The position numbers and the translations under genes were made by a program. The notes beneath the pieces were generated by a model. That model had not been told where the DNA came from and searched no databases. It saw only the letters and a program-made list of their open reading frames with translations. 64,000 nt of DNA from a virus, in the IMG/VR virus record IMGVR_UViG_3300033977_000108, positions 62,001-126,000 of that record, one strand, 5' to 3'. Positions 11,793 to 63,769 of this stretch are shown piece by piece. Numbering within the stretch: the first letter of the stretch is position 1; every line of letters starts with the position of its first letter.

Positions 11793-13631
11793 ATGAGCTA
11801 TGCGAATCTTCCTGGAGTACAAGTTTTCACGGTTGACGGCGGCTTAGCCGGGCTTGCCACTCCGCAAGACAAGTCTACATTGATTCTTGGAAGCGCGGGA
11901 ACTGGTCCGTGCAATGTTCCGTATCAGGTAACAAATAAGGCGACGGCTGAAGCAGTTTTTGGTTATAGCGGCACTTTGGCCCAGGGCTTGGAAGAAGTTG
12001 CTGTTTATTGCGATAATATCTTCTTGTATCGCTATGGAACCGAGCCTGCAACGGTTTCTGGCATCGGAGTCGATAGCGTATACCCTGGCTTTTCGATTAC
12101 GCTGGGCGAAGTGGCTGCGACTACTGGTACCGATTACCAGATCTGGTATTCCGCTGGTATCCTGTATCTGTGGCTAAGTGGTAATCTGGTCTATACAAAT
12201 GACCCAGAGAATCCGGTTGATACATCTGATTCGGTTGTTTCCGGGTCGGCTGTTGGCGGACAGGCCATCAATACCGGCAGCAATCCAAAGACCGTTGCTG
12301 GCGCACTGACTATTTCTGCCGCGGCTGCTGCTAGCGGATCTACGCTGGAGTATGTGCCTTGTGTGACTGGCCTTGGTTTGACTGGCAGAGAGGTCTATAT
12401 CGCGGCTGCTGAAGCATTGGATCTCCTGACCAACTTCCCAATACAGCAAGTCTATTGTCCAGAGATGATTTTGGACCAGCCAAACGTTGCTTTTTATTTG
12501 GGCGGCGAGGGTGGCGAGGCTAATGAAGTTGACAATCCGGCAACCAATCCTGATGCTCTTGATTGGCTGAATACCACGACCGACCAGTACGGAAATGTGA
12601 CCTATCATTGGGCATCCGAGAGCGTGGATAGCAATGGAAATCCAGCTACACCACAAACATTTACCAGTGCTACTCAGCGCTTAGGTGCTAACTATCATGA
12701 AGTAAACTTCGGCTATCAGCTGGCGCGATTTGCCGCTGCTCAATCCGAAGTATTAGGCGGCTGTGTCGCTTTCCTAGGCTGCGCGCCGACACCAAACAAC
12801 AAATACGACTTGCCAAGCATCAGAAAGTGGATCGGCTACTTGCCCACTTATAATCCCGTCACTGGGACTCCAACGGTATCTGGCGGCGGGCTATTGGGCA
12901 TACCATATCTAGTTGGTTGCTCTGCTGACACTTTGAATTTCCTGTGTGCCGACGCGGCCAATGGCTATCGGTTGCCAGGCTTTTTCCAGACCGATTCCGA
13001 TGAATATGATGGTGGAGTTGATTACGATCAGAACAACTATCCTATTGACATCGGCGCCTATTTGCACGTATTCGGTGATACGGCCCTTATCCAGAACGGG
13101 TATGGGCAATATATTGGGAACGCGGCAGCTGTTATCGCCGGTTTGCACTCAACTCTTGACCCGAAGGTAGCATTGACTTACGAGCCTGTGGTCAGTGTGA
13201 CCCAGTTGTACAGAGCCTCGCTCAATCAGCTGGATGCTCTGACACAAGCGAAAGTTGACATGCTGCGTTACAATGGGGCCGGTAATCCTCCAGTCTGCCT
13301 GCATGACCGTACTGCTGCTGGAAGCCAGAGTGACTATATCTTCTTGCTGCGTCAGGACATCAAGTTCCTGGTAGCACAGATACTCTTCACTACCGGCGGC
13401 CAGTTCATCGGCAAATCCAGTATTGATGGTTTGCAGATGCAATCTATGCAGACCGCTCTTGATAAGCAGATGCAACAATTGCAGAAGAACCAGTACATCA
13501 GCTCTTACAGTTTCACGGTCTCTACTACAGTTGCCGATTATAAAATAGGAAGGGCTACAATCAATGTAAGATTTAATCCAGCTAATGAATTGGTTCAGCT
13601 CTTCTGTGTCATCGGCATACAACAGACATAA
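11793..13631 (+). CDS. Contractile tail sheath protein
   Basis: A 612-aa protein with the typical sheath start (SYANLPGVQVFTVDGG ... STLILGSAGTGP) and a conserved C-terminal domain with LRQDIKFLVAQILFTTGG, a helical segment with LDKQMQQLQKNQYI, and final beta strands (FTVSTTVADYKIGRATINV). The length is in the range of SPO1/A511-type sheaths. Subunits polymerise around the tube and contract during infection. ATG 11793 follows AGGGAG. The gene is followed by a strong hairpin, so its message may end or be stabilised there. Confidence 0.88.
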   Translation: MSYANLPGVQVFTVDGGLAGLATPQDKSTLILGSAGTGPCNVPYQVTNKATAEAVFGYSGTLAQGLEEVAVYCDNIFLYRYGTEPATVSGIGVDSVYPGFSITLGEVAATTGTDYQIWYSAGILYLWLSGNLVYTNDPENPVDTSDSVVSGSAVGGQAINTGSNPKTVAGALTISAAAAASGSTLEYVPCVTGLGLTGREVYIAAAEALDLLTNFPIQQVYCPEMILDQPNVAFYLGGEGGEANEVDNPATNPDALDWLNTTTDQYGNVTYHWASESVDSNGNPATPQTFTSATQRLGANYHEVNFGYQLARFAAAQSEVLGGCVAFLGCAPTPNNKYDLPSIRKWIGYLPTYNPVTGTPTVSGGGLLGIPYLVGCSADTLNFLCADAANGYRLPGFFQTDSDEYDGGVDYDQNNYPIDIGAYLHVFGDTALIQNGYGQYIGNAAAVIAGLHSTLDPKVALTYEPVVSVTQLYRASLNQLDALTQAKVDMLRYNGAGNPPVCLHDRTAAGSQSDYIFLLRQDIKFLVAQILFTTGGQFIGKSSIDGLQMQSMQTALDKQMQQLQKNQYISSYSFTVSTTVADYKIGRATINVRFNPANELVQLFCVIGIQQT

Positions 13632-13761: not shown

Positions 13762-14475
13762 ATGTCAAACTCACCTTTGCCAACTGTTACAGGCAATCCA
13801 TCAACCGAAAGTGATATAGCTCGTAGTTACAACTCATTTTCCGGTAGCGATATACGAGCCATGATTGGCCCCTATACCTTCGCTGAAATCCAAGCTATTA
13901 GTTACAGCGTCACACGCGAGAAGGCGCCTATCTATACGATGGGTTCTCCTGATGTGCGCTCTTTCAGCCGTAACAAGCGCGGTGTGGCTGGCTCGTTGAT
14001 CTGGATCAACTTTGACCGTCATTCTCTGTTGAACTTGATCCGAGCGTCACAGGGTACTTTTGTCGCTAATGTTGACGATCTACGGCCTGAATTCAGAACG
14101 GCCCAAACCGCTTATATTCAGGATGGGTCATTGGTCTCTGCGCCAGAGGTTCGTGATACCGGCGTGCCGGCGTCTGCTTATATTGACCAGTCAACTCTTG
14201 GAGCCAACATTGCTACAACTGGTGCTTTGAGCGGATATAAAGAACTGGCAATCCCTTGGTATTCTGACCAGATTCTGCCTTTTGATGTGACTGCTTCCGG
14301 CGCGAATGAGTATGGTGCGGCTACAGGTATGAAGCTGTATGGTGTGGAAGTCTTGAATGAAGGTAGCGGCATTTCAATTGATGACCCAGTTACTGAAATG
14401 CAGGCTACTTTCGTTGCCCGCCTGGCTATGCCTTGGATGGCCATCAGGACGCCTTGGACCAATTCTGGCGCCTAA
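13762..14475 (+). CDS. Tail tube protein
   Basis: A 237-aa protein immediately after the sheath, as expected. It carries the tube-fold pattern: SGSDIRAMIGPYTFAEIQAI, then YSVTREKAPIYTMGSPDVRS, RNKRGVAGSLIWINFD and a helix (LLNLI), and ends with a strand region (ATFVARLAMPW). It forms the inner tube through which DNA and proteins pass. It is the first of three related proteins (also 14538 and 16293) and the one most likely to be the bulk tube subunit, because it is flanked by a hairpin on both sides and has a strong ribosome site. Confidence 0.82.
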   Translation: MSNSPLPTVTGNPSTESDIARSYNSFSGSDIRAMIGPYTFAEIQAISYSVTREKAPIYTMGSPDVRSFSRNKRGVAGSLIWINFDRHSLLNLIRASQGTFVANVDDLRPEFRTAQTAYIQDGSLVSAPEVRDTGVPASAYIDQSTLGANIATTGALSGYKELAIPWYSDQILPFDVTASGANEYGAATGMKLYGVEVLNEGSGISIDDPVTEMQATFVARLAMPWMAIRTPWTNSGA

Positions 14476-17373: not shown

Positions 17374-17814
17374 ATGACCGAGAGTCTGACCCCCACAGAG
17401 GAACAGAAAACCAAAGAAACGCTACTTACCCCTGCCGAATTCCTGGCTACCGTTCCAGGCGCGCCGACGCCACAGCAACTGGATGGTTGGAAAGCCAATG
17501 TGCCAAATCACAGGCTCAAGCTATTCGCCCCTGAAAAGGGTCGGGTATTCATTATCCGTGGTATTACCGGCTTGGAAATGACTGCCATACGGCGAGCCGT
17601 TCCTGATAATGCCCGAGATCCAGATGATGAAGTCCAGTGCGCTGCTGTTGAAAAGGCTGTGCTATGGACTAATACTACTGCCAGCAATAGGATTACCAGG
17701 GCTGAGTTGGTATCTGGTTCGGCTGGTTTGCCGTTCGCTATCTTCACTGTGATAGCAGAACTGAGCGATTATTACGCGCCCGACTTTATCGCCAGTGTAT
17801 CTGGAGATCTATAG
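17374..17814 (+). CDS. Tail assembly chaperone, first part
   Basis: A 146-aa acidic protein (TEEQKTKETLLTPAEFLATV ...) with a compact domain around residues 40-110 and a helical end. It lies between the tube genes and the giant tape-measure-type genes, the standard place for tail chaperones. A strong site TAGGAG precedes ATG 17374. It ends in TAG, and the next chaperone-like frame continues in the same reading frame. Confidence 0.68.
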   Translation: MTESLTPTEEQKTKETLLTPAEFLATVPGAPTPQQLDGWKANVPNHRLKLFAPEKGRVFIIRGITGLEMTAIRRAVPDNARDPDDEVQCAAVEKAVLWTNTTASNRITRAELVSGSAGLPFAIFTVIAELSDYYAPDFIASVSGDL

Positions 17815-17826
17815 GAAGAGGCTACA

Positions 17827-18339
17827 ATGCGCAAATGGGAAGCCATCTGGCGTGATGGCGTTCGCATTGTCTGGCGCAGCCTCCGTTGGGAAGAATACAA
17901 AGCTTTCAGTTCCCGCACCCATCACCCAGCTGACCTATATCTGGAAATCTATAAAACTTGTATCCTTGAGGGGCCTTCTGCCGAGGAGGTCCCATTCGGG
18001 GTTGTTGATTGGCTGGGCCTGCGGGAGTTTGAGCAGAATCCCTTTTCCGGCCGGCTTAGCCAAGTCAATATTGCCATCAATGAAAAACGTGTTTGGTTAG
18101 CAAGCAACTATTTCGCAGCTTGTTCGGCTATCCTAGCCTCGGTATTGCACATACCCTTGGAGACTATTGAAAAGATGGATGCGGATGAGTTCTTCTTTCG
18201 TGTGGCGCAGGCCGAGTTCCTAATAGGCAAGCCTCTTGACCCAAGAACCAAGTCTACCAAAGGTAGGCACAAGAAGCCACACGAGCCCGGCGCCAGGGAT
18301 ATGCAGTTTGAAAAGTCCGACTTTACCTTCACCAAATAG
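17827..18339 (+). CDS. Tail assembly chaperone, second part
   Basis: A 170-aa protein starting 12 bases after the TAG of the previous gene and in the same frame, with its own GAGG 5 bases before the ATG. Composition: Trp-rich N-terminus (RKWEAIWRDGVRIVWRSLRW), helical middle and a basic, probably disordered C-terminus. Classical chaperone pairs (lambda G/GT) are made by a -1 frameshift. Here only a stop codon separates the two, so the long form could arise by stop readthrough or re-initiation. Confidence 0.65.
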   Translation: MRKWEAIWRDGVRIVWRSLRWEEYKAFSSRTHHPADLYLEIYKTCILEGPSAEEVPFGVVDWLGLREFEQNPFSGRLSQVNIAINEKRVWLASNYFAACSAILASVLHIPLETIEKMDADEFFFRVAQAEFLIGKPLDPRTKSTKGRHKKPHEPGARDMQFEKSDFTFTK

Positions 18340-21300: not shown

Positions 21301-23264
21301 TTTCCAGGCGCTATTATGAGAAAGAGTTAGGCGCTTTGATAGGAATAACGCCTAGCGCTGATATATATGGATTTTCAGAGCCTCTTCGTCGCTTCATTCA
21401 GCCCGAACGGCTCGGCGCCCAAGTCAATGAAATACCAAATCAGATGCCTTCTTGGCTGCCTGGCGAGGATTACTATACCAACTTCCGCGTAGGTGATATT
21501 TATGCCCGCATACCAGAAGGTTATATGCGATTGCCGGGGGCTGGCTATGAGGCGCTACACCCGGAATTGCAAGGTCTAAAGCCCGAGGAATATCCTGATT
21601 TGACAAAGCTCAGAATTCTGGCTGATGTCGCACCTTATTCAAGGCAATATGAATCAATGCGTGTCCGAATGCAGGCTGAAGCCCGGCGCGATACAAACTT
21701 GGCTATTGAAGTTGATAGAGTAACGCAACAAGTAGAACGATTGAAGAAATCTACTATTCAACTTAGTCATCGTCGCTTTACCGAAGAGGTGCAGAAGATA
21801 CGCGGTACTATAAAAGCCGCTGGTCCGACAGGCGTGCTACTGGAAGAATATCCTGGCCGCACTTTCCAATTTAGCGCCCTCGGTATGTCAATGTCGGACA
21901 TGTCAGCCGTTGTATTGGGAGAACAGAATGCCCTGACTCGGACGCAAATGGTACAGGAGGTAGAGCGCAGACAACAGCGGAGAGATGAGTTTATTGCGAA
22001 CTATTTACAGCCCGGGACCCAAGTATTCGCGACTGTGCCGGTAGGCGCCGTAGAACATGCCCCCGAAATACAAGCGGTACTTGAAACACGCGATATAAAC
22101 ATCAACAGGGCCCTCATCAACCAAGGATTAGCCAGATTGCGACCAGAGGAGGCCGGAGCTGAATATCAGGCCATGGAAGGACCTGCTGGAAGGGTATTAG
22201 GCACTCTGGCCGAATCTTTAGCCTTTGCCGGCGATCAGAGTATGTTCAATCCGATGCGCTACATACCGACGCCATTCGGCACCAAACTTTGGCAGATGCA
22301 AACGCCCCTCGCACGCTATCAAGAAGAAGAGATTTACGGCAATCGTATGCGCAGATGGGACAGACCTTTACATGATTTCTTGATGCCTTATCTGCGTGGT
22401 ATGACCCATAGACTGACCGGTCAGAATTTGATGCCGGCCGAGGTACAACACAAGAGAAACTTGAATGAGTTGGCTGATGTTATGAAATACTTGCGCGGCA
22501 TACAATCCGGCAGTGCCATGCAAGCAGCCCGCACAGCAATGGGAGCTAATTTGTTTGCCGAGCCTTCATATGTAATGTCCACTTTACCACGACGTGAACA
22601 GCTTTATTTCGCCGACTTTCTGAATGAAACGAACCCTGATAAGCGCAGAGAGATTCTTGATTCTGTGGCGCCGGAGACCGCCCGTGCCTTGCAGGCTCAA
22701 TGGGTAACCAGAGATGCCAGTATACTTCGTGCAGAAGGGAAGCGAGTCCCACCTATAGGCGAAGGCGGCCGGCTATACACACCAGAGGATGTTGAAGATT
22801 ATGAGCGCGCCCAGACTGATTTGACCTATGGTCAGTATGTCCGAAGCAGGGAGATAGCCGAGTTCTTTGCTCGCACTGGCTGGGCTATGCCAGAAGCGGG
22901 GGCCGATGCCTACAATCCTGCCATTGACTACGAAGATTTGAAAGTCAAGATGCTAATGCAGGAAGGCTATAATCTGCACGATTTCAATCTTTATGACGAC
23001 CGCGCCAATACCGTCTGGCGTAAGCCCTATCTGGATGGAGCTATACGGGAGCTCACCAGTGGCGGAAATCGGTCGGTAGAGAACATCAGGCGCACGGTAG
23101 AAAGACTTATGCTGGACTCACAAGGCGGCAATCCGAAAGTGATTGCTACGGGGCATCCGTCTAATCAACCGATAAATCGTGTAAATGTTACCTTTGATGA
23201 ACATCCGGAGAACGACATGCTCCGTGACATACAGCGTAATAGAGAAGAGTATGCGGTAGGCTAA
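18342..23264 (+). CDS. Giant virion protein with N-terminal DEDDh exonuclease and SNase-like region
   Basis: A 1,640-aa protein at the tape-measure position. Residues 9-270 form a DnaQ-type DEDDh 3'-5' exonuclease with all five metal/catalytic residues: Asp13 and Glu15 (LDIETGG), Asp135 (HPLYDLSF), and His254-x4-Asp259 (HEARTD). Hydrophobic segments occur near residues 328-347 and 760-775. Residues ~1030-1110 hold QMPSWLPGEDYY ... GDIYARIPEGYMRLPG. Residues ~1150-1275 resemble a degenerate staphylococcal nuclease fold (INRALINQGLARL), without its catalytic set. Its start follows the chaperone pair and its stop overlaps the next start (TAATG). It is likely an internal tail or ejected protein. 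Confidence 0.75.
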   Translation: MSLPYDQSFFVLDIETGGELLERGGESVAGFFEASERGRFVGSAYHTLHSNHPLLQVDVYRGGAFAPIGGPGGGYVRPPVGAIASTFSLKKGTWERAMASSMTEEEAAHRVFEELAAHIGQHKPAIVSGYHPLYDLSFIETLTWRYPSLSAYRGKLAEWRRLGQLKIQELEEPFLRLALAFGQQHKEFAEKFFRMGPNTPITPAYWPGKLAETFEEMKFVPGWGQENIVRALGGQRFLKSLQLLYPYVNLTGLHEARTDIIASIHSYELFQRALQKVEAGVDIETALQGALPDIGLTAESFFRSVYRPFETAAGAITTKSVARAGSRIKGKYWAIAAGATLLSALLASSRVGKPAHHITGLQDIGLAPEGRHARTDFGSGYQGLDKSPTLTTAEYMLAAGVLYGTHRYLLRAVPEYGKTLFSFFRTLEERSPAGILKTFSLGDIFSAYIPSTLHYEPGQLISKGTGLYTELGAHFQRLTGLGKEQMRAGLTFERVSTAEPYMRLKEAPGVSVRFARQGRLVTSSARYGAPLRPAPPMPKTYMSLDQMFNLKAWSRAFEALKETQRGRRLQGIAWSTFEGEKIGFQPLYVRRGPGAAKQVASRLDTLRRVLFELAERPQRLMTEAGVGLKAGSYNKVFNFPFVGKGGLINQLLLKRVLPAYLAYTGLRWLDYKTGHRASDAIAGLPLHANILRAELTDFIPGLRKVTDFYARNVPGPQYGPLALPAGGAFLGAALHYAHVLQGRFQTEAVRKAALSKYGKVGALIGAALMLPLLPGMIGSRKTADELRRIYSGEEEIPVRAGRWWEVGSTPFWGGRIKYFRPHWYARMKARSEAVSLWGSEEEYWRHHPLLHPIRAFTHPYELEERNYWQRPYPVTSPAFSNVPLIGPILAATIGKIVKPPRYMHQGEWSPEEYTLYSPRLEPKEGGLPPARARDEYGLMDVLKREAYNVTEFIGLPGFIAQSLWQRIHPPQPGGPPMLQGSRQMTNISRRYYEKELGALIGITPSADIYGFSEPLRRFIQPERLGAQVNEIPNQMPSWLPGEDYYTNFRVGDIYARIPEGYMRLPGAGYEALHPELQGLKPEEYPDLTKLRILADVAPYSRQYESMRVRMQAEARRDTNLAIEVDRVTQQVERLKKSTIQLSHRRFTEEVQKIRGTIKAAGPTGVLLEEYPGRTFQFSALGMSMSDMSAVVLGEQNALTRTQMVQEVERRQQRRDEFIANYLQPGTQVFATVPVGAVEHAPEIQAVLETRDININRALINQGLARLRPEEAGAEYQAMEGPAGRVLGTLAESLAFAGDQSMFNPMRYIPTPFGTKLWQMQTPLARYQEEEIYGNRMRRWDRPLHDFLMPYLRGMTHRLTGQNLMPAEVQHKRNLNELADVMKYLRGIQSGSAMQAARTAMGANLFAEPSYVMSTLPRREQLYFADFLNETNPDKRREILDSVAPETARALQAQWVTRDASILRAEGKRVPPIGEGGRLYTPEDVEDYERAQTDLTYGQYVRSREIAEFFARTGWAMPEAGADAYNPAIDYEDLKVKMLMQEGYNLHDFNLYDDRANTVWRKPYLDGAIRELTSGGNRSVENIRRTVERLMLDSQGGNPKVIATGHPSNQPINRVNVTFDEHPENDMLRDIQRNREEYAVG

Positions 23265-26200
23265 TGGCGTTGAATCCTTTTCTAAAGTTCGCCAGTAATC
23301 CGGTTCTCACCGGGCTGACCGGCTTGGCAGCCGTGACAGCGCCGTTTGCTATGCGAACGGAGAATCGCGGCTATTTTAAGACGGCAGCCATTACTACTCC
23401 TTTGATACTGGCAGCAGGCATTGCTGCACCATCCTTTATTTCCTCGGCGGCATCCGCCATTTCAGAACATGTACGCTTTACTGGTAGGGCTTTTAGCAAA
23501 TTGGCCCAAGCCGGTTCTATGGATTATAAGACACTCCGGCAATTCTTGGAAACGGGCAACATAGGGAGTTCTGCTTATGACGCGGCCAGCGAATTTCTAC
23601 CGGCTGCCGCAATAGATTGGCTTGGCCAGTTTGGCCGGCCAGCCGCCAAAACGCTTACGCAAAGATTGACAGACATTACCACTTTGTTGAATAATATGGC
23701 TACCAATGAGTTATGGGAGGAGAACAAATGGCTGCTCACTCATGCCTTTGAGCGCAGCCGCCTAAGGACAACTCCTCCAGCGGCTTTGGCAGGTGCCGAT
23801 TTGACCATAGCTGGTACTCCTTTGGGCAGGGAAGAGCTTTTCCAACGCCTGCGCCAAGCCGAACTAAATAAGAATGAATACTTCTTGGAGGTGCTGGAAG
23901 GTCAGCTGCGCTATGGAGGCATGCTACGGGACCTCGGACCAATGACTGATATAGCAGCACAAGCGATACAAGCCATGCCGCCGGAAACATTTGGAGTAAA
24001 AGACCTGATTGGCGGTGTATCGCCTTTAGATTTGTTGAGAAGTCAGAAAAGAGAGAAGGTTTATGAAGCCCTAATGGCGAGGCAAAATCTATTGGACACC
24101 GCTACCTTTGTGGCAACCGATGTAGCGACAACGCCAAAACTTATCCGCATCAATCTTCGCCTTCCAGGAGGGGATTTAGCAATACCTATTTTGGATCCGA
24201 CTACAGGAGTTGTCCATGTCGGTGCTGATTATCGTATTGCTTCTGGTCGGGGTGTCTGGGAGCCGGTCGGGGATACAAAGACCGTGCGTATGGCTTTGGA
24301 TGAGTGGATAGCCTCTCATTTGGACCGGCCATTTGCGGATTTACAAAGTGCCTTGGATATAGCTCCTGTCGGCAGTATAGATAAACTGAATGCCTACAAA
24401 TATGAGAGCATGGCTGCTGATAGGGCCGCTGTTCTTACCCCGGGCGCTACGAAGCGTTATAGCATGGAATACATACCGGCCCCAGGTAAAGTATTCCCAG
24501 GAAATAGAACATACGAAGATTTGACGCAGGCCGAGAGGATGACTTATGCCCGCAGTGCCTTGGCCGATTGGGCATCTCCAATAACCGCAGAACATCCCTT
24601 CCTTGGTGGCACTTTTGGCGCCAGGGAGTTGGAGTTCTATACGGCTGGCCGCATGGCCCCGTGGAGTAGGCAATCGGAAGCCATGCGAGCATTCAACAAG
24701 CCCTTGCATTATGGTTATGTGCCGCTGGAACTTCGGCCCAGATTTACGACTGCTGCTATGGCAGGCGAAGCCTCGGTTAGACATACATTTGCTATGATAA
24801 GCCCACAGGAGGCCGAGTTGTTTGGCGGCTTACCCCTATCAACCGGCGGGCTGGCCGGCGGAAAAGGCGCGGCCATTGGAAGATTGAGATTTGAACACCC
24901 CAATCTAACAGAGGCACAAGCCTCGCAACTGTGGGATACCTTGGTTAGAGAGCAATTGAGTAATCCTGATGTATTACAGGCTGCCCGTTTGGCAGGAGGT
25001 CTGGGTGAAACAGAAGCCATCCTGAGACCTGGCCAGGCCACCCGGATACCAACTATCAAGAACCGCTGGATACCATTGAATACAGTCAACATACCTTTCA
25101 ATACGCCCTATGGACCCAATCAAGTAATAGGCTGGGGCGATATAGAGCGTGTTGTCTCCGAAGCCGATGAAACCCGCCTATTGAAATTGGAACGGAGCAT
25201 TTCAGGACAATTACAGGCTTTGGTAGAAGAGACTTACTTCTCCAGGACTGGGGATAAGCTGAATGTCGGTGGGGTAAAAGCCACCACTATTCAGCCTACT
25301 GCGGAGGATTTTGAGGCGTTGCGACAGGTTGTAAATCTGAAGCGCAGGATGCTTGGAGAAACTGAAATCCCAGAGGATGCCACCGCTCTAATCAATGAGA
25401 TGTTCTTCCATGAGAAAATACATGAGCCTGCTGGTCTATTAGCCGAGCAGGCTGCCAGCTTATACGAGGAAGCCAAGGCTTTGCAGACGGAGTTTCCTTT
25501 TGATCCCGCCCTCACCGAAGCTATGACAGCCTTTAGAGAGGGCATGGCGGCACAGAAAATCTCCTACACCGGCGCCGGATTTGAAGAAGATACAGCGGCA
25601 CTGGCTGGTTGGCTGCGGGAGGATTTGAATACACGACAGGCACGGATACTTGACCTCGCCGAAGGTTTAGCCAAGAACCTGGAAATCTACGCCGGCGCGC
25701 ATCGTGGAAGAATAATGAAGCATGGCGGCGTCCTAAAGGGTTTCCTGAATGCCAAGAATGAACAAAGCCTTCTGCGTTATACATTATTCCATCATTTGGA
25801 GGCCGGCACTGCCAAATGGAACGCCCAAGGCTTATATATGCCGAAGCGTACTGGGGTGACTTGGGAATTCTATAGCCGTCTCTACGAAAGTGGCTTGATT
25901 GAGTCAATGCGTACTGTTTTTGGCAGGGTCAATTTCTTACATGGCGAGATACGGCCGATGGCTGATTTGGCCCGCTATTTCGGCGCGGGAGATTATACGA
26001 AAGTCTTTGGCGAGCGAGTATTCAGCATGGCCGAAGCTGTGCCTTCCGGGTTCTCCATGAAGGGGCTTACTGGGCGAGTAGGCTTGTTTGATTATACTGA
26101 CCCAAGGTTTAGGAATCCCTTCTCTATTCGTCTTGACCGCCCGATTGATGTAGAGATGGGCAGGCAAATGGTAAAACATGAATACATCCCTGTATTGGGC

Positions 26201-28072
26201 TGGGGTACTTATGGCGGCGGCCCGAATATAGAAGGCCCAGGACAATTCTATGCCACCGCTTACGAGAAAGCCCTCAATAGACTTATCGCCGCTTCCAAGG
26301 GAACTGGGGTGGGCTATGGGGAAGCTTGGCGAGCTTATCAGGACGCCATCGCCAAAGCGGCATTTGGGAAAGAGGGAGCTGTTTGGAGGGCTACGACATT
26401 TGATCCGATGGCTATAAGTGCGACATCAGAGCAGATAGCCAAACTTGAAGGCAGGAGTCCATTTGAGATTTTTGTATCGGAAGAAATAGCCGAAGGCTTT
26501 GGACCAGAGGTGCGTGCTGCTATGAGGAAGGAGGGTGTTTATGGCATCATAACTCGGCACCCGGAACAGGCGACATTGCCTATTTTGGTCAGAGTTCCAG
26601 CTAGGAATTCAGCCGAGATAGCGCTCCTGGGGAAGCGTGGCATTGGCATTTCTAAACAATTGGCAGGTGCTTTGGAGGCGGATTTTGATGCTGACACTTT
26701 GAACTTATTTTTGATGTCGCCGCGCGATAGACCAGCGATTGCCGAATTGAGGGCGGCTATAGAAGAACCGACAAGCTTTGCTAATCAATATCTCAACACC
26801 ATCAATCTTATGTATGCCAATGCCGAAGCGTCGGCTACCCATAGGATGAGTACAATACGCGGCGAGGGCTCTCCTTGGGAATACTTGCTTGGTAAGGTAG
26901 GTAAAGAGGCCGGCAATGTGGAAACAGCCGCCTCTCGATTGAGCGGTCGATTCATAGGACATTTTGCGAATCTGGTGTATGCGTCCCAGACTATGTTGAG
27001 AAGCCATCCAGCTTTTATGATTGACCCCAAAGAGCGGGCATTTTTGAGCAATGTGTTGTGGCTCCCGAAACAGGCAGCCATCGGCGCAGTGAAAAGCACA
27101 CAAGCCGTTGGGACACAAACCGCGGTAGAGACTATCTTTGAACGGATGCGCGCCGGCCTGGGTATGGGGACCAAAGTAGGTGCCGAGCAATATATTTCTG
27201 GCTTGCAGGAGATTGCCAAAGGCTGGAAGTGGGAGGCAGCCCTAACACCTGAAACAGCAGCCCAATTGTTTGGCGTATCCGAACAAGAGCTGGCCGAAAG
27301 CATCGGTATGGGAACGGTTGGCAATTTACGGCAAGCCATGCGCGATCAGAGACACTTCAATATTGTGCAGCAGGTAGTGGGGTCTGAACGCGTCCGGCGG
27401 GATTTGGAAACCTTGATTCAACATCCTTATGGGCAACAAGCAAGGAATGTCACCCATTTGTTGATGACACCTTCTGAAAGAATAACCACAGAGGCCTTTC
27501 AGGAGTTTCGCCGTATTGGCAATGTGGCTCCTGAATTACAGGCATTGGCTGGCGAGCAGCGTGGAATACGCGATGTCGTGGCTGGTATTCTTGGCGCTTG
27601 GAATCGGGAAACCGCTGCTGCCCGAGGCGCTGTTGGCAAAGCCTTCAAAAGTACTCTACCTATACTGGGCTTGGGACTTGGCGCCGCTGCTTTGGCCGGC
27701 GTATTTGTCGGTGGCGGAATGGGAGAAAAAAGTGCCTCTGCTTATCGGCCAGAAATGGCTTTGGGAACGACCGATAATGTCCCAGGTGAGCCTATTGCTG
27801 GCCTTATGGCGCCTGTCCGACCGCCCAGAAGGATTATACCCGGGCCGCCAATGACAAGGACAGCAGTAATTGCACCTATGCGTCAGTCTGTGGATTTAGA
27901 GGTCAGATCTCCTTCTGGGGACCGAGAACGAGCAGCTGAGCTTAGCCGAGTGGTTTCACAGGTAGCTGGTGGAGGCATCACGTTCTCAAATATCAACTAT
28001 GTGAATGGTCATAAGCGATTGAGCACGCTGCGCATGAGACAAAAGGTACATGAAATGTTAGGTGAAGAATAA
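23264..28072 (+). CDS. Giant virion protein with RNA polymerase beta'-type catalytic motif (candidate virion RNAP)
   Basis: A 1,602-aa protein. Residues ~1030-1175 follow the order of the RNAP beta' double-psi beta-barrel: Gly-Lys ... Trp-Arg-x-Thr (Arg1042) in place of the SGRSVI strand, then FEIF in place of ELF, then LPILVRVPA (Arg1110, Pro1112) in place of PVLLNRAP, and finally EADFDADTLNLFL, matching NADFDGDQMAVH with all three Asp kept (1140, 1142, 1144) and Gly replaced by Ala. The ~100-residue spacing between the first Arg and the Asp triad also matches beta'. Hydrophobic segments lie at the N-terminus (residues ~12-60) and near 1465. I could not pinpoint the beta-type barrel with its two Lys. 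Its position among tail genes recalls the virion RNAPs of crAss-like phages. Confidence 0.65.
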   Translation: MALNPFLKFASNPVLTGLTGLAAVTAPFAMRTENRGYFKTAAITTPLILAAGIAAPSFISSAASAISEHVRFTGRAFSKLAQAGSMDYKTLRQFLETGNIGSSAYDAASEFLPAAAIDWLGQFGRPAAKTLTQRLTDITTLLNNMATNELWEENKWLLTHAFERSRLRTTPPAALAGADLTIAGTPLGREELFQRLRQAELNKNEYFLEVLEGQLRYGGMLRDLGPMTDIAAQAIQAMPPETFGVKDLIGGVSPLDLLRSQKREKVYEALMARQNLLDTATFVATDVATTPKLIRINLRLPGGDLAIPILDPTTGVVHVGADYRIASGRGVWEPVGDTKTVRMALDEWIASHLDRPFADLQSALDIAPVGSIDKLNAYKYESMAADRAAVLTPGATKRYSMEYIPAPGKVFPGNRTYEDLTQAERMTYARSALADWASPITAEHPFLGGTFGARELEFYTAGRMAPWSRQSEAMRAFNKPLHYGYVPLELRPRFTTAAMAGEASVRHTFAMISPQEAELFGGLPLSTGGLAGGKGAAIGRLRFEHPNLTEAQASQLWDTLVREQLSNPDVLQAARLAGGLGETEAILRPGQATRIPTIKNRWIPLNTVNIPFNTPYGPNQVIGWGDIERVVSEADETRLLKLERSISGQLQALVEETYFSRTGDKLNVGGVKATTIQPTAEDFEALRQVVNLKRRMLGETEIPEDATALINEMFFHEKIHEPAGLLAEQAASLYEEAKALQTEFPFDPALTEAMTAFREGMAAQKISYTGAGFEEDTAALAGWLREDLNTRQARILDLAEGLAKNLEIYAGAHRGRIMKHGGVLKGFLNAKNEQSLLRYTLFHHLEAGTAKWNAQGLYMPKRTGVTWEFYSRLYESGLIESMRTVFGRVNFLHGEIRPMADLARYFGAGDYTKVFGERVFSMAEAVPSGFSMKGLTGRVGLFDYTDPRFRNPFSIRLDRPIDVEMGRQMVKHEYIPVLGWGTYGGGPNIEGPGQFYATAYEKALNRLIAASKGTGVGYGEAWRAYQDAIAKAAFGKEGAVWRATTFDPMAISATSEQIAKLEGRSPFEIFVSEEIAEGFGPEVRAAMRKEGVYGIITRHPEQATLPILVRVPARNSAEIALLGKRGIGISKQLAGALEADFDADTLNLFLMSPRDRPAIAELRAAIEEPTSFANQYLNTINLMYANAEASATHRMSTIRGEGSPWEYLLGKVGKEAGNVETAASRLSGRFIGHFANLVYASQTMLRSHPAFMIDPKERAFLSNVLWLPKQAAIGAVKSTQAVGTQTAVETIFERMRAGLGMGTKVGAEQYISGLQEIAKGWKWEAALTPETAAQLFGVSEQELAESIGMGTVGNLRQAMRDQRHFNIVQQVVGSERVRRDLETLIQHPYGQQARNVTHLLMTPSERITTEAFQEFRRIGNVAPELQALAGEQRGIRDVVAGILGAWNRETAAARGAVGKAFKSTLPILGLGLGAAALAGVFVGGGMGEKSASAYRPEMALGTTDNVPGEPIAGLMAPVRPPRRIIPGPPMTRTAVIAPMRQSVDLEVRSPSGDRERAAELSRVVSQVAGGGITFSNINYVNGHKRLSTLRMRQKVHEMLGEE

Positions 28073-31000
28073 TGAGTTTGATGGCAACAGAGGAACGGAC
28101 AGCAGGAACCTCGGGGTACTTCCGCATTGGTGACGTGGTTTTGGATATTCCTCCGGAAGAGATAATCACGAGCAAGATAACCAATAACGAAGAAATGACC
28201 CCTATTCGTGCGCCTTATCCTTTCTTGGAGAAAACCGGGCACGCCAGATGGGATGTGACCATCCATTGGAAAGCCCTCGTGGATAATACAGGAGGTGCTT
28301 CCGATTACTCTCAATGGATAAAGGTGCGGCGCATTCTGGCGATGTTGAAGGCCGCTCCTTTTGTTGAAGTGGAGAATAGGCACCTACGGCATCTATTTAT
28401 AAAAGACGATACGATAAACGCCCTATATTCAAGGATGGCTTTTGCCTTGAAGCAGCTGCGCGTGGATGTAAATCCAGACTTGGTTGATTGCTTGGATTGT
28501 ACCCTGACCATGTGCCTGTTCAACTATCGGCCATTTAGTAAAGACTTTGCCTACTTGGGAAAAGACGGGCGGCAGGTCAGCGCACACGAGTCGCCGTTCT
28601 TCGCGAAATACCTTGATGATTGGATTTCCAATAACTTGGACGCGCCTTATGCCGGCGAAGATATAGACTTTACATCAGCTTGGGATATACAAAAAGATGG
28701 CACGCTATGGTTCAAATGGCGGGAGATTATAGCTTTGCCCTTGACCCCCGTTTTAGGAAAGGACATGGGCGTTGTTCCATCCTTGGGCACTTGGAAACGC
28801 CCGCCTAATAGCCAGCAAGATACCGAGGCGGATTTGGCCAATCGCAGATACTGGCCGTGGACGCTGGATAAAAATAATGAAAGCCAGGTAACAGCCCTGC
28901 GTAATGCTATCATAAAATACGAATCCGTATCTGCGGCTTATCCCCATGGAGGCAACCCCAACGCTATATCCCCGACAGGCGCCACCGGTTTGATGCAATG
29001 GACCTCGACCAGTGCTATACAGACATTGAGCACGTTGGGAGGTCATTATTTTCAGGCTGCCATACAGAGCGGATTGTTGCAGCGTATGGGCAACGGCAGC
29101 CTGCAATGGGCCGGGCCAGACCACATGCAGAGCTATCATACTTGGATGACCGGCACCCAAGCACAGACCGGGCTAACGAGTGAGCAGCAACTGGACATGC
29201 AAAATCAGATGGCTGATACATGGATGACCATGAAGCTGCAGGAATCCAATTATGATGTTGACCAGACCTTGATGCATCATCTTGGTGTGTATGAGTACTA
29301 TTCAAGTCTCAATACTGTAAAAATACATGGTAGGGACAACTATTATGCTTCCAAGCCTCATGCAGAAGAGGCAAGTGTATGGTGGGACAATGTAGTCGGC
29401 GACTTCCGTACAGCCATCAACGACCCGACGGCCTTGCAGGGCTCATCGCCGCCCCAAAATGTGAACACAGCGGCGCAGGCATCTGTTCAACCAGTGCCAG
29501 CTACTCCTACTCCGAATCCGCCCAATCAGCCAGCTACGTCAACCCAGAATGTAACCAGTGAATCAGCGCCAACTGCGGCAGAAATGAAAGCTATAAATGA
29601 TAAAATCACTGAAGGCTGGATGCCAGACCATTATACCGATCTCTGGGCTTTTTTATACTGGGTCCACTCCATGAAGCTGGTGGATGAAGAGCATGGTGAT
29701 AGCGGGCCTCTATTAGAAATGTCTCCGGTTGATTGCGGCCTGTGGCCGACTAATCTGTCAGTTGTATTCTCCAATAACCTGGCCCAGCTGCCGCTACAAG
29801 ACGAGGTGTATCCTACTTATCAGCACATGGGGCCGGCTACAACCTTGGTCAGCGTTAGTTTTACTTCAGTCGGCAAGTCAAAGTATGAAGAAGAGGAGCC
29901 CTATCACGTAGGTCTGTCTTGGCTGACTGCTACCTTCTCTACATTGGACAATCAATATCACAACTATCACTCTTTGTGGCGGATGGCCTCCACTAACCAC
30001 AAGATACAAGGCATTGTCTTGCAGAATAAAGTCTTGAATATGTTAGGGATACGAGGGATATTACTAGACAGTTTCACCACCCAGACCGTAAAGGAAAGCC
30101 CGAATGTTGTCCAGGCCGAGTTTTCAGCCTATCAGTTTGAGAACGTTTATGAGGACCAGGTAGCTTATAGGGTAGCGGGAATAGGCACGCTGGAGGCAGC
30201 TCTGTGGTGGGATATGCTGGCAGGTACGGCTAATGGGCAGCCTACACCTAATCATAAGCTATTCAATGATTTTAGGGCGGGGCTGACGCCGGAACAGGCT
30301 GCTCCTTATGTAACGCTATTCGGATTACAAGATACTCTGAATAATCCGACATCTGCCGCTGCGCAGAGTAATTTGCAGTCTTATCTCACCGAGAATCGCG
30401 GCTATCTTGATGACCCGGGCTGCCGAGTAATACCAATGCCTGCTGATGTAGAAAACAATCCCCTATGGACGCAGCATATGAATGTTACTGATCCGGGGAC
30501 TGTATTGCAGCAGTTTCCAAACCTACAGAACGAATATCCAGCCATCCCGGCGGCGATGGAAGCCCATGTCGGATTGACCTATACCGATTGGTTCGTATTG
30601 TCAAGAAGCATAGGCGTCCCGACCACCCAGGCTAAACCTTATCTTTCCTGGCTAATCGGAGAAACTCCGAATCTGGCCGGAGTGCCTCCTACTTCATCGT
30701 ATACCAATTATTTGGCTGTGGCGGGCCAGATAGACACCTTGATTGCCAATCAGGCGACGAGCCAAGGTATAGTACAACCAATTACCCAGCTCTGTCAGTT
30801 TTATTTCAACTTCAAACGCAAAACGGATAACTCCCTTTTATCAGCAATGCTGACCATTGAAAGAATGAATAATCCGCTTGGGCAAATATTCAAAAATTCT
30901 ATCAATTCAGGCGGACCAGGGCGTGACCCTTGCAATGCAGAGCACGGAGCATATAGAGATATTGGACTGATGCCCGTATCTAATGCTGGTATAGATAATA

Positions 31001-33738
31001 ACCCTGCCTATTACTTCTATGATTACAGCAATGAAATGAAGGCCAGCCTGGGTGATAAGGTAACATCAGCGGTGACTTCTGCCTTACAGGCAGAAGACAT
31101 GATAAATCAAGTCGCGGGCTATCCGCCTACGCTGGATGTGAAATCTATTTCAATCGCCGACCAGAACAAATCAAAGACGCAACGGATACAGGTAGCTACA
31201 TCAGAATCAGCTCCTCTCTTGGGCTCCATGAGCCGGGCATTCCCAGCTTTCAAGTTATTCTTTGTGGAAGAGAACCTTGATAAACCATTCTACATGTTGG
31301 ACAACTTCTATAGCTATGCCAATGTCCTGGATATGGAGATTATCAAATACCGAGACCAGCCGGATACAGCTGTGCTGACCATTACTAATAAGTCGCATCT
31401 GTTATCACACCGGCTCTTTGATAACACTGTCGCTGGTAGGCAAGAAAGAAAAGATAACATACAGCTCGTAAATCTACCGAATGCCGGTCCTGGGATGGCA
31501 TCGCCAGGCTACCAAGGCGGAGCGGTTATCAATAAAACGCCGAATGGCTTTCTTGAGATGAAGAATCTTACTGATTCTTTGCCTGGCAGCACTGCTGATA
31601 ATGTTCAACGAGCCTCGCCTAACTGGTTCGCTTTGCAGACCGGCTCAAAGATACAGGTAAGACTGGGTTTCACCAATAATCCTGATGACCTATTGCCTGT
31701 CTTCAGTGGCTTCGTCACCGACATACAAGGAGATGAGGTATTGACCATTACGGCGCAAGGATTTATGCTTGAGCTTATGTCTCCGGCGCCGGATTTGATG
31801 AAGCGTGTCGGCAATGTGGCTAACTATATCGCTTGGAATGCGGATGCCATTGGGGTTATGGATACCTGCCTGCAATCGCCCTATGCCAAGCATTTTGGGC
31901 ATTGGCAGATAGGTAATACCCCCAATCAATTTATAAAAGGATTCCAATGGGGCCCAGTTATCTATTCAACTTTCAATGCTTTGACGACCGGCCGGGTCAG
32001 AGATGTCAGCGTCTTGCTGAAACAATCCTATAATAGGCGAAACGAGAATCTGCGTATCAATAGATTCGTCAGCTTTGATGGTAGCAGTACACCACAAACA
32101 GCCAGGCCTTGGAACTATGAAGGTACGGCATGGGGTGCTTTCCCGCCCTGTTATTGGATACCAGATGACACATCTGTTACTCCATGGCAGATAATGCAGG
32201 ACATAGCTAGGCGTTATCCTGAATACATCCTGGCTGTCAAGGATTATGGTTTCCCTTATGATGTGGCTGCTACTCTCGTGTACCTTGACCCTAACGAGTG
32301 GTATTTTTCAAGGTATCAACTGCCGGGGGATTTGGAAAAGATACGCGGAGCAAACATTAGCACTGATAAGTTTGATAGGTGGTGGGCAAGTCAAGGCCGG
32401 TCTCAAGTTGAAGGTCTCCTAGGACTTGGTAAATCCAGCACTCCACAAGCTACTACTGTCCTTGTCGGGGCTGTGGCTGCTGTAATGTTTGGAAATGTGA
32501 ATGGGGGCTGGGTTCAGAACCTATTATCCAATACGTTAGCTCGGAACGCTTTGGTGGCAGGCTCGGTTGCTACCACACCCGGAATGGCTGCTCTGCGTTA
32601 TGGGCTCTCGGTTACGCCGCTCAAAAGTCCCCTGTGGTCAACGCCGGCACAGTTGATTGTAGATTGGATAACCCAAGGCCATGGTCCCGCCTTTGATCAA
32701 TTTGTGAATGCCAGCGAGATAGTCTGTTCCTCAGCTATCATACCATTGATAACTTTGCCCCTGCCCGGGATGAATTTAGCCCATGATTTTATGTCTACGG
32801 TGACCGGCATACAAACAGATCTCTATGCTTATTTGCACAGTACGTACGGTGACCTAAAGACAACACTGGGCGATTGGATGAAACCAGTGCGAAACTGGTG
32901 GTTTGCTGATAGGTCGGTTATCCTGGAGAATGCTATAACAAAGAATGATGATGTATTCAACGCCGTACAGATAAATGGAACCACCACGGCTATAAATGAC
33001 ACTATACCTGAACAATACCGCCACATCCTGGTAGCCGATAAGATGTGCGTAAATCCTAAAAAGAATATAGGGTATCAAGACCCAAATCTCAAGTTTGCCT
33101 ATCAGGCGTCTTTCCTGAAAGAGGAAATAGGCAAGATGTATAGGGGTGAATTAGTTCTGCTGGGTTCGCCGGAGATTAGCCCGTATGACATCATTATAAT
33201 CTCTGATGAGTGGATGGGAATGCGGGGACCCGTGGAAGTGGACTCCGTTATCCATTCCTTTTCACAAGAAACCGGCTACATTACCATTGTGAAGCCGCGC
33301 GCGCTAGTCTCGGTCAATGAGCGAGTAACGGCGCCTGTGTACATTGTCTTGAGCGATTTGTGGAGGAGCATTGCAAAGGATGTCGGACTTGGCGCCAGGT
33401 TCTCAAGCATCAAGGCAGCAGCGAGTATACAGAATGATACCATCACTACTGGGGCAGTGGCATTAGCGGCTGGCGCCACATTGGCAACCGTAGGAATAAG
33501 TGAGTTAGCCACAGTGGGCTGGTTATTTGGCGTCAATGTGACGAATCTGAACCCTATTATAATCTGCCCGATAGAACGCTTTGGCAGACCTTGGGTCGCC
33601 GGGCTTCAGGGTTTCAAGATTTCCAGCCTATTAGGCGTAGTAAAAGACCGCTATTATAGATTCTGTCAGTCAGAGTTTTATCCTTTCATTGAGTCCTGGC
33701 GGGACGCTGAAAGGCAGTATTTGACCATAACTAACTGA
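28072..33738 (+). CDS. Giant baseplate hub protein with lytic transglycosylase domain
   Basis: An 1,888-aa protein. The N-terminus has a phage baseplate-type domain (YFRIGDVVLDIPPEEI). Residues ~275-440 form an SLT/lysozyme-like domain: catalytic Glu284 in KYES, then NAISPTGATGLMQW. A Pro/Thr/Gln-rich linker follows (~450-500). Residues ~1190-1240 carry a gp27-like hub signature (VFSGFVTDIQGDEVLTITAQ). The C-terminus has a hydrophobic stretch (ALAAGATLATVGISELATVG). It likely forms the central hub and locally opens the peptidoglycan during injection. Start ATG overlaps the previous stop (TAATG). The length is exceptional for a hub, suggesting fusion of hub, lysozyme and further baseplate domains. 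Confidence 0.78.
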   Translation: MSLMATEERTAGTSGYFRIGDVVLDIPPEEIITSKITNNEEMTPIRAPYPFLEKTGHARWDVTIHWKALVDNTGGASDYSQWIKVRRILAMLKAAPFVEVENRHLRHLFIKDDTINALYSRMAFALKQLRVDVNPDLVDCLDCTLTMCLFNYRPFSKDFAYLGKDGRQVSAHESPFFAKYLDDWISNNLDAPYAGEDIDFTSAWDIQKDGTLWFKWREIIALPLTPVLGKDMGVVPSLGTWKRPPNSQQDTEADLANRRYWPWTLDKNNESQVTALRNAIIKYESVSAAYPHGGNPNAISPTGATGLMQWTSTSAIQTLSTLGGHYFQAAIQSGLLQRMGNGSLQWAGPDHMQSYHTWMTGTQAQTGLTSEQQLDMQNQMADTWMTMKLQESNYDVDQTLMHHLGVYEYYSSLNTVKIHGRDNYYASKPHAEEASVWWDNVVGDFRTAINDPTALQGSSPPQNVNTAAQASVQPVPATPTPNPPNQPATSTQNVTSESAPTAAEMKAINDKITEGWMPDHYTDLWAFLYWVHSMKLVDEEHGDSGPLLEMSPVDCGLWPTNLSVVFSNNLAQLPLQDEVYPTYQHMGPATTLVSVSFTSVGKSKYEEEEPYHVGLSWLTATFSTLDNQYHNYHSLWRMASTNHKIQGIVLQNKVLNMLGIRGILLDSFTTQTVKESPNVVQAEFSAYQFENVYEDQVAYRVAGIGTLEAALWWDMLAGTANGQPTPNHKLFNDFRAGLTPEQAAPYVTLFGLQDTLNNPTSAAAQSNLQSYLTENRGYLDDPGCRVIPMPADVENNPLWTQHMNVTDPGTVLQQFPNLQNEYPAIPAAMEAHVGLTYTDWFVLSRSIGVPTTQAKPYLSWLIGETPNLAGVPPTSSYTNYLAVAGQIDTLIANQATSQGIVQPITQLCQFYFNFKRKTDNSLLSAMLTIERMNNPLGQIFKNSINSGGPGRDPCNAEHGAYRDIGLMPVSNAGIDNNPAYYFYDYSNEMKASLGDKVTSAVTSALQAEDMINQVAGYPPTLDVKSISIADQNKSKTQRIQVATSESAPLLGSMSRAFPAFKLFFVEENLDKPFYMLDNFYSYANVLDMEIIKYRDQPDTAVLTITNKSHLLSHRLFDNTVAGRQERKDNIQLVNLPNAGPGMASPGYQGGAVINKTPNGFLEMKNLTDSLPGSTADNVQRASPNWFALQTGSKIQVRLGFTNNPDDLLPVFSGFVTDIQGDEVLTITAQGFMLELMSPAPDLMKRVGNVANYIAWNADAIGVMDTCLQSPYAKHFGHWQIGNTPNQFIKGFQWGPVIYSTFNALTTGRVRDVSVLLKQSYNRRNENLRINRFVSFDGSSTPQTARPWNYEGTAWGAFPPCYWIPDDTSVTPWQIMQDIARRYPEYILAVKDYGFPYDVAATLVYLDPNEWYFSRYQLPGDLEKIRGANISTDKFDRWWASQGRSQVEGLLGLGKSSTPQATTVLVGAVAAVMFGNVNGGWVQNLLSNTLARNALVAGSVATTPGMAALRYGLSVTPLKSPLWSTPAQLIVDWITQGHGPAFDQFVNASEIVCSSAIIPLITLPLPGMNLAHDFMSTVTGIQTDLYAYLHSTYGDLKTTLGDWMKPVRNWWFADRSVILENAITKNDDVFNAVQINGTTTAINDTIPEQYRHILVADKMCVNPKKNIGYQDPNLKFAYQASFLKEEIGKMYRGELVLLGSPEISPYDIIIISDEWMGMRGPVEVDSVIHSFSQETGYITIVKPRALVSVNERVTAPVYIVLSDLWRSIAKDVGLGARFSSIKAAASIQNDTITTGAVALAAGATLATVGISELATVGWLFGVNVTNLNPIIICPIERFGRPWVAGLQGFKISSLLGVVKDRYYRFCQSEFYPFIESWRDAERQYLTITN

Positions 33739-63072: not shown

Positions 63073-63276
63073 TTATTTGCCCTTGCCGGACTTCGTGAAG
63101 GCGCCGCGAGGCTTGAATGCCTTGGCGGGAGCCTGATTAACCGGAGGTGGCAGAGCATGCGGATCCGTGCCATGGTGTCTTCTTCCTGGCCCTGTAGCAG
63201 TTGGGTTCATGAAACTACCGACTTTCCCTGGACCATCACTTTTACCCGGGCTTGGATTCTTATAAGGATTAGACAT
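63073..63276 (-). CDS. Small Lys/Gly/Pro-rich array protein 2 (67 aa)
   Basis: ATG 63276 lies inside the end of the endonuclease gene, with AAGGAGA upstream. 67 residues: start MSNPYKNPSPGKSDGPGKVG, then SFMNPTATGPGRRHHGTDPH, and a Pro/Ala/Lys tail. The SDPHA-type segment (TDPHALPP) is also in protein 1 (GDPHAMPQ). Confidence 0.7.
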   Translation of the reverse strand: MSNPYKNPSPGKSDGPGKVGSFMNPTATGPGRRHHGTDPHALPPPVNQAPAKAFKPRGAFTKSGKGK

Positions 63277-63769
63277 GTTCGTCTCCTTTATTTTCGTATT
63301 GTTTTAGGTATTCAATCATACCTGATAATTTTCGTATGCTACTGCTGAATAGACCTTCTCCGCAGTTGCAACTAAAGCAAAGAATACCACGTATTCTGCC
63401 TGTTGCATGATCATGATCTGTTTGCCAGCCTTTTGGCCCTGGATCTGTAGTTAGACAGCCTGGATTGGCACAGCGTCTGCCTTGTCTTTCAAACAAGGCC
63501 TCCCACATTTCCTCAGATATACCATATTTCTTCTTTAACATATATCTTCGTTGTATGGAAGCATAGCCTGGCTTTCCTTTCTTTCTTTGCGCATGTATCC
63601 TATCATACGCTTTTGCTTTGTCTGGATTTTTCTTCTCCCATGACTTCTTTTGTTCGTTGCTGCATTTCTTACACCAGCATTTCAGCCCATCTGGTTTCCT
63701 TTTGTCCTTATAAAACGGACCAGGACCGCCACATTTAGGACAAATCTTCGTCTTGATGGGTTCTATCAC
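63269..63769 (-). CDS. Recombination endonuclease VII-type HNH nuclease
   Basis: 166 residues from GTG 63769 (TAGTG overlap with the stop of the upstream gene). N-terminal zinc site CPKCGGPGPF ... CWCKKC, a basic middle, then YGISEEMWEALFERQGRRCA, CLTTD, and the catalytic HNH block QTDHDHATGRIRGILCFSC with a final helix. This is the T4 gp49-like (endonuclease VII, His-Me finger) family. It can act as a resolvase or as a mobile nuclease; here it splits an array of tiny paralogous genes, which favours mobility. It overlaps the next gene by 8 bases. Confidence 0.85.
   Translation of the reverse strand: MIEPIKTKICPKCGGPGPFYKDKRKPDGLKCWCKKCSNEQKKSWEKKNPDKAKAYDRIHAQRKKGKPGYASIQRRYMLKKKYGISEEMWEALFERQGRRCANPGCLTTDPGPKGWQTDHDHATGRIRGILCFSCNCGEGLFSSSIRKLSGMIEYLKQYENKGDEHV

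Follow-up and report, generated by a model that had tools for sequence, protein, structure and literature searches.

A tail protein at the tape-measure position of a jumbo-phage genome contains a module homologous to two-barrel RNA polymerases

The tail locus and its giant protein

We analysed a 64,000-nucleotide stretch of viral DNA (the window), which corresponds to bases 62001-126000 of a 204,633-base virus record. A contractile-tail gene set was identified, in the order sheath, tube-like ORFs (at 13762 and 14517), two chaperone-like ORFs, a homologue of orf145, the giant protein studied here (the window protein) and a gp27-like hub. The features of this locus, all on the plus strand, are:

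11793..13631, plus strand: tail sheath position, 612 aa, assigned by synteny with ME3 and KLEB27-3, with no profile test
17374..18339, plus strand: two small chaperone-like ORFs (17374 and 17827) at the tail-chaperonin position, orf143/144, placed as in ME3 and in PMC2147016
18342..23264, plus strand: upstream partner, orf145 homologue, 1,640 aa, kept in all relatives
23264..28072, plus strand: giant tail protein at the orf146 position, 1,602 aa with an ATG start, carrying a single-chain two-barrel RNA-polymerase module
23384..23443, plus strand: hydrophobic segment by hydropathy, residues 41-60, matched by one at the same place in the relative L007
27650..27721, plus strand: C-terminal hydrophobic segment by hydropathy, residues 1463-1486, ahead of a Pro-rich linker and a C-terminal domain
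28072..33738, plus strand: baseplate hub, orf147-type, 1,888 aa, downstream, assigned by synteny with PMC2147016

The same gene order is found in the 0305phi8-36 lineage, Acinetobacter phage ME3 and Bacillus phage KLEB27-3 (PMC2147016). Lying between the tail chaperones and orf145 on one side and the hub on the other, the gene for the window protein corresponds in place to orf146 ("tape measure") of the 0305phi8-36/ME3 jumbo-phage lineage. A reading of this DNA made earlier from the sequence alone (the sequence-only reading) had named a sheath and a hub with lysozyme as the neighbours, and both stand, with the sheath at 11793 and the T4-gp27-like hub at 28072 containing an SLT-type stretch. 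The tape-measure role of orf146 rests on its length (PMC2147016). Since the polymerase module of the window protein spans residues ~400-1300 and fills ~900 of its 1,602 residues, the orf145 homologue encoded at 18342 may be the real length ruler; it is a tape-measure candidate, and our assignment of the ruler role to it is a guess.

The 18342 protein has further features, read by eye. DnaQ-like motifs (DIETGG, YDTEILG, FDIETL) lie at its N terminus in the window phage (18342-19200, residues ~10-260 of P0002), and an SNase-like stretch (ALINQGLARLRPEEAG, residues ~1225-1275) in its C-terminal part is conserved with MTATph1 and KLEB27-3. In the KLEB27-3 group (gp034, L019, L020, L024, L042 and L084), DnaQ-like motifs are found instead at the N terminus of the polymerase protein. 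Pfam RNase_T matched MTATph1 CDS27 only (P0005 962-1065, E=5e-5), with nothing in the window copy. The DnaQ-like domain may represent a nuclease that is injected and has shifted from one of these tail proteins to the other. Elsewhere in the window, small GIY-YIG-like (MYVGQTYRSLKKRWWEH) and HNH-like ORFs, likewise read by eye at 2175-2930 and 63269-63769, are probably homing endonucleases.

Catalytic motifs and homology to RNA polymerases

Both barrel motifs were found in one ORF of the window phage. The motifs of the window protein are:

25250..25291, plus strand: barrel 1 (beta-type) catalytic motif GDKLNVGGVKATTI, residues 663-676, with Lys665 and Lys672
26363..26401, plus strand: FGKEGAVWRATTF, residues 1034-1046, with Lys1036 and Arg1042, aligned near beta' LLGKRVDYSGRSVI
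26549..26563, plus strand: ITRHP, residues 1096-1100, with Arg1098 and Pro1100, counterpart of beta' NRAP, invariant in the 20-sequence alignment and aligned to beta' NRAPT
26675..26713, plus strand: barrel 2 (beta'-type) catalytic loop EADFDADTLNLFL, residues 1138-1150, with Asp1140, Asp1142 and Asp1144
26936..26980, plus strand: RLSGRFIGHFANLVY, residues 1225-1239, with conserved Gly1232, a possible bridge-helix equivalent
27065..27097, plus strand: PKQAAIGAVKS, residues 1268-1278, with a Q..I motif as in FSQDLISSKKF and LEQKLISSKHG of relatives, a possible trigger-loop helix equivalent

Translation of the ORF bears out the DxDxD at Asp1140, Asp1142 and Asp1144 described in the sequence-only reading, with the Gly of DxDGD replaced by Ala. 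It is the single DxDxD of the protein, against 0.058 expected from composition alone. Arg1042 on the WRATTF strand, proposed in the same reading, also holds, being invariant together with Lys1036 within the close subgroup of the window protein (FGKEGAVWR). Two further assignments had to be revised. LPILVRVPA (residues 1105-1113) had been taken as the NRAP counterpart, and the family alignment has instead the invariant Arg1098 and Pro1100, which precede Asp1140 by 40-42 residues. No specific resemblance to beta' was confirmed for the downstream helix ELRAAIEEPTSFANQYLN; the conserved downstream residues are Gly1232, Gln1270 and Ile1273. Across 20 aligned sequences the three Asp, Arg1098, Pro1100 and Gly1232 are invariant, Ile1273 is conserved in 95% and Gln1270 in 89%, and conservation of at least 90% is reached in just 16 of 692 well-filled columns.

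For the first barrel, an unsupervised alignment placed GDK665LNVGGVK672ATT onto the motif of the relatives, a Lys followed by a second Lys or Arg. Lys665 is present in 95% of 20 homologues, and position 672 is Lys in 75% and Arg in several others. The KLEB27-3-like group has an invariant Lys and then Lys or Arg 7-8 residues on (FKFMIEGEKTT, FKISFAGEKGT), and the corresponding motif of L058 is FKIGAKHGQKVT. This Lys motif resembles KFASRHGQKGT of RPB2 and GDKLAGRHGNKG of Escherichia coli beta. In the AlphaFold2 model of the window protein the barrel-1 stretch is predicted to form eight strands, most blocks having a pLDDT of 74-90, and in many shorter relatives the barrel-1 HMM found no match. 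The sequence-only reading had proposed a search for a second barrel with two conserved Lys in this protein or the 18342 protein; it is located in the former, at Lys665 and Lys672, and not in the latter.

The window protein by itself gave no matches in single-sequence searches of Pfam, PHROGs, PDB (phmmer), phages (tblastn) and viral contigs, because it is too diverged on its own. A profile of 20 sequences (A5), consisting of the window protein first and 19 relatives, matched the beta' and RPB1 subunits of RNA polymerases in all of its best 40 distinct PDB sequence matches. The top match was Bacillus subtilis beta' (E=1.4e-4), over ~185 profile positions covering LLGKRVDYSGRSVI, NRAPT and NADFDGD. 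A profile of relatives only (A6) had phiKZ055 as its top PDB match (E=0.0096), with Pfam RNA_pol_Rpb1_2 matching 4 of 14 members (best E=3.8e-4); the profile of the window's five-member subgroup, which is too small, had no PDB sequence match. An HMM built without this close subgroup matched the window protein in the module region with E=1.5e-11, compared with E>4 for 300 shuffles. The beta'-type catalytic site of the sequence-only reading is thus supported by both the A5 profile and the HMM of the relatives. A core profile placed P23-45 gp96, phi14:2 gp66 and YonO all above 12 controls, with gp96 best (P=0.008).

The sequence-only reading was to be refuted by a structural model lacking a double-psi barrel around residues 1040-1145. 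A good model was obtained for a homologue: the AlphaFold2 model of L037 (mean pLDDT 78, pTM 0.76) had RNA polymerase beta'/RPB1 in all of its 50 best Foldseek matches in PDB (E from 4.4e-5, probability 1.00), and its viral fold matches in BFVD included viral RNA polymerases, proteins of ME3 and a "minor tail protein". For the window protein, AlphaFold2 gave a model of low confidence (mean pLDDT 56.6); none of its Foldseek matches reached significance, although RNA polymerase chains were among those ranked highest. Taken together, the profile comparisons show the window protein and its relatives to be homologues of two-barrel RNA polymerases at the level of sequence profiles, and the predicted structure of L037 shows homology at the level of the fold for that relative.

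These results bear on two other explanations. The first, that a DxDxD arose by chance in an ordinary tape-measure protein, could draw on the empty searches with the window protein alone. It is contradicted at the family level by the A5 profile, the subgroup-free HMM and the L037 fold, as well as by the composition estimate, and we rejected it as having a negligible probability. The second, that the module has a polymerase fold but a different chemistry, for example that of a primase-like or PolD-like DNA-synthesising enzyme acting on the incoming genome, is suggested by the two barrels of PolD (PMC10770324) and by the exonuclease-like domain in the same or neighbouring proteins. The profile and fold matches are, however, to RNA polymerase beta'/RPB1, with the RxP motif and the helices after the catalytic motif, and PolD is absent from the best 60 PDB sequence matches of A5 and the top 50 fold matches of L037; we consider such an enzyme very improbable.

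Distribution across related phages

Relatives were collected via the upstream orf145: a first scan gave 13 loci, and later ones 80 viral and 13 genome loci. An earlier scan of genome contigs with a KLEB-type alignment had confirmed none, and the scan keyed on orf145 succeeded. The ORF that joins the polymerase module to the tail protein of the tape-measure position lies between orf145 and the hub in the window phage, ME3, KLEB27-3 and tens of contigs. Excluding 22 cut-off loci, we sorted 70 assessable loci by DxDxD and HMM, and identified the module at the same position in 55 of them; 14 are without it and 1 is unclear. The three Asp residues are therefore kept in homologues, one of the two points on which the sequence-only reading had staked its claim.

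Among 51 members selected by DxDxD, in which conservation of the triad is partly by construction, 43 have an RxP motif 31-65 residues upstream, which is found in 5.6% of random windows. Some of the remaining eight may be wrongly included. Bacillus phage KLEB27-3, to which a search with the hub led, encodes gp034, annotated "structural protein"; this contains VNRYP...ADYDGD and aligns with the DxDxD region of the window protein (BLASTP E=2e-4, in a single comparison). The ME3 protein gp036 contains SREP...GDHDQD. In relatives of 2,300-2,500 aa the module lies in the C-terminal half.

The fourth position of DxDxD in the 51 members is Gly in 26, Ala in 11 and other residues in 14, and in the close relatives of the window protein it is Lys, Leu or Asp. 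These replacements raise the possibility that, within the window's subgroup, a descendant of a two-barrel polymerase has lost its catalytic activity and been kept in the tail for a structural or DNA-binding role. The poor conservation of the barrel-1 region in many short members points the same way, as do the 14 relatives that manage without the module, which is thus dispensable for tail function. Against this, the three Asp, Arg1098, Pro1100 and Lys665 have been retained amid divergence elsewhere, and crAss-like gp66, an active virion RNA polymerase, reads DFDID for DFDGD, so that Ala in place of Gly is no argument against activity. We regard a dead module as unlikely.

Several loci have other arrangements. 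In L018 (13312-21104), the polymerase module, with ADYDGD, is a separate ORF directly after a module-less orf146 protein, which is a natural unfused arrangement. In L061-L068, L046 and L051 the orf146 protein is ~1,360-1,580 aa (split in L066), with no trace of the module. A transposase/IstB-like ATPase pair interrupts the orf146 counterpart of the Moorella phage MTATph1 (L002 7932-15288); the sequences on either side of it retain the exonuclease and the C-terminal part, with no DxDxD. ME3 (G018) additionally has, on the minus strand at 222117-226876 (L154:5117-9876), an 807-aa ORF, a gap and then a 375-aa ORF with SDVDGD; this pair has no Pfam match. The 807-aa ORF is probably the 798-aa ME3 protein that matches the polymerase model in BFVD, and the two ORFs are possibly a split second RNA polymerase that is not virion-borne. 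Of the 13 cellular-genome loci with orf145 relatives, 12 (L110-L121) are contigs of Acidobacteria metagenome-assembled genomes, which suggests Acidobacteria as hosts for part of the lineage, and perhaps for the window phage.

Proposed role and comparison with known systems

We consider it likely that the window protein, encoded at the tape-measure position, is a component of the tail with a built-in single-chain two-barrel RNA polymerase, which is ejected and transcribes the first genes. In this protein a beta-like barrel 1 (Lys665/Lys672) would come first and a beta'-like barrel 2 (Arg1098, Asp1140/1142/1144) second. The protein would sit in the tail, and contraction of the sheath would eject it by way of the tube or hub, its hydrophobic segments lodging in the envelope. 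The polymerase part may then act ahead of, or independently of, the host RNA polymerase to transcribe the first genes of the entering DNA, possibly while entry is under way. The shared position of the module in most of the related giant phages suggests that they inject a ready-made transcription enzyme along with their DNA. Within the 204-kb window genome we found no second RNA polymerase by DxDxD in ORFs of at least 300 aa, by the core and A6 HMMs or by PF05183, a search that a split or DxDxD-less copy could escape.

The module might alternatively be an active two-barrel polymerase that is made late and used in the cell, having been fused to a structural gene by an accident of position. YonO and P23-45 gp64 show that two-barrel polymerases can be non-virion (PMC10770324). 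The module is, however, fused to N- and C-terminal tail parts, and distant phages have it in the same location, with the chaperones/orf145 on one side and the hub on the other; the annotation of KLEB27-3 gp034 as structural is also at odds with a purely intracellular enzyme, and a late gene would be expressed too late for early transcription. We therefore judge this alternative quite improbable, and favour the injected tail polymerase.

More broadly, and with moderate confidence, we propose that tail-embedded two-barrel RNA polymerases form a very diverse clade, not described before, that is present in most jumbo phages of the 0305phi8-36/ME3 lineage. The tape-measure protein itself would be the injected polymerase, and transcription would start during contraction-driven delivery. 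The Gly of the catalytic loop would have given way repeatedly to other residues (A, K, F, L, D, N, Q, S), and some relatives would combine the polymerase and an injected exonuclease in one protein. If true, this would turn the tape-measure polymerase of P23-45 from a single curiosity into a common strategy of a widespread lineage of contractile-tailed jumbo phages, assign a role to giant tail proteins annotated as "hypothetical" or "structural", and explain a possible host-independent start of transcription in such phages. Tens of divergent two-barrel polymerases would also join a superfamily that is of central importance for how transcription originated. Bacillus phage KLEB27-3 and Acinetobacter phage ME3 are cultured test cases.

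The type phage of the lineage, 0305phi8-36, has no tail-fused module and instead encodes a free RdRP/YonO-like polymerase. Its orf146 "tape measure protein" occupies the same position between orf145 and the gp27-like hub (PMC2147016), and both DxDxD and a core-HMM match are absent from the 2,558-aa frame. The free enzyme, orf99, matches PF05183 (E=4e-18; PMC2147016, PMC7824862), a family without a match in the window genome or ME3. Like the window protein, orf99, YonO and QDE-1 (PF05183) have two barrels in one chain, whereas their genes are free and non-tail.

Among jumbo contractile phages, phiKZ and AR9 share the concept of a virion RNA polymerase, and the best sequence and fold matches include phiKZ055 and AR9 beta'. 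Their enzymes are multisubunit with the barrels on separate polypeptides, whereas the window family has one chain fused to a tail protein. The sequence-only reading had looked to crAss-like podoviruses for the nearest precedent. The virion RNA polymerase gp66 of crAss-like phi14:2 is likewise a single-chain two-barrel enzyme, but it belongs to a podovirus, is not at the tape-measure position, and has weak core-profile similarity (P=0.03).

A nearer precedent is the Thermus siphophage P23-45, whose tape measure protein gp96 carries an active virion RNA polymerase (Chaban et al. 2024, PMC10770324). Single-chain polymerases have the beta-type barrel first and the beta'-type second (PMC10770324), and the window protein has the same order as YonO, QDE-1, crAss gp66 and P23-45 gp96. 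With gp96 it further shares a two-barrel polymerase in one giant chain, the tape-measure position and a DxDxD in a tail protein. In contrast, P23-45 has a long non-contractile tail, while the window family belongs to contractile jumbo phages; gp96 is 5,002 aa long and carries its DFDGD close to the N terminus, at 779, and the module of the window family is in the middle or C-terminal. The window family also differs from gp96 in the frequent replacement of Gly, in the nearby exonuclease-like domain, and in having no detectable full-length sequence similarity to it. We found no description of this tail-fused family in the open-access literature searched, a scope that did not extend to the supplementary survey of PMC10770324. 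The tail-fused RNA polymerase of contractile jumbo phages is thus new and widespread, and the fusion itself has a precedent in P23-45 gp96.
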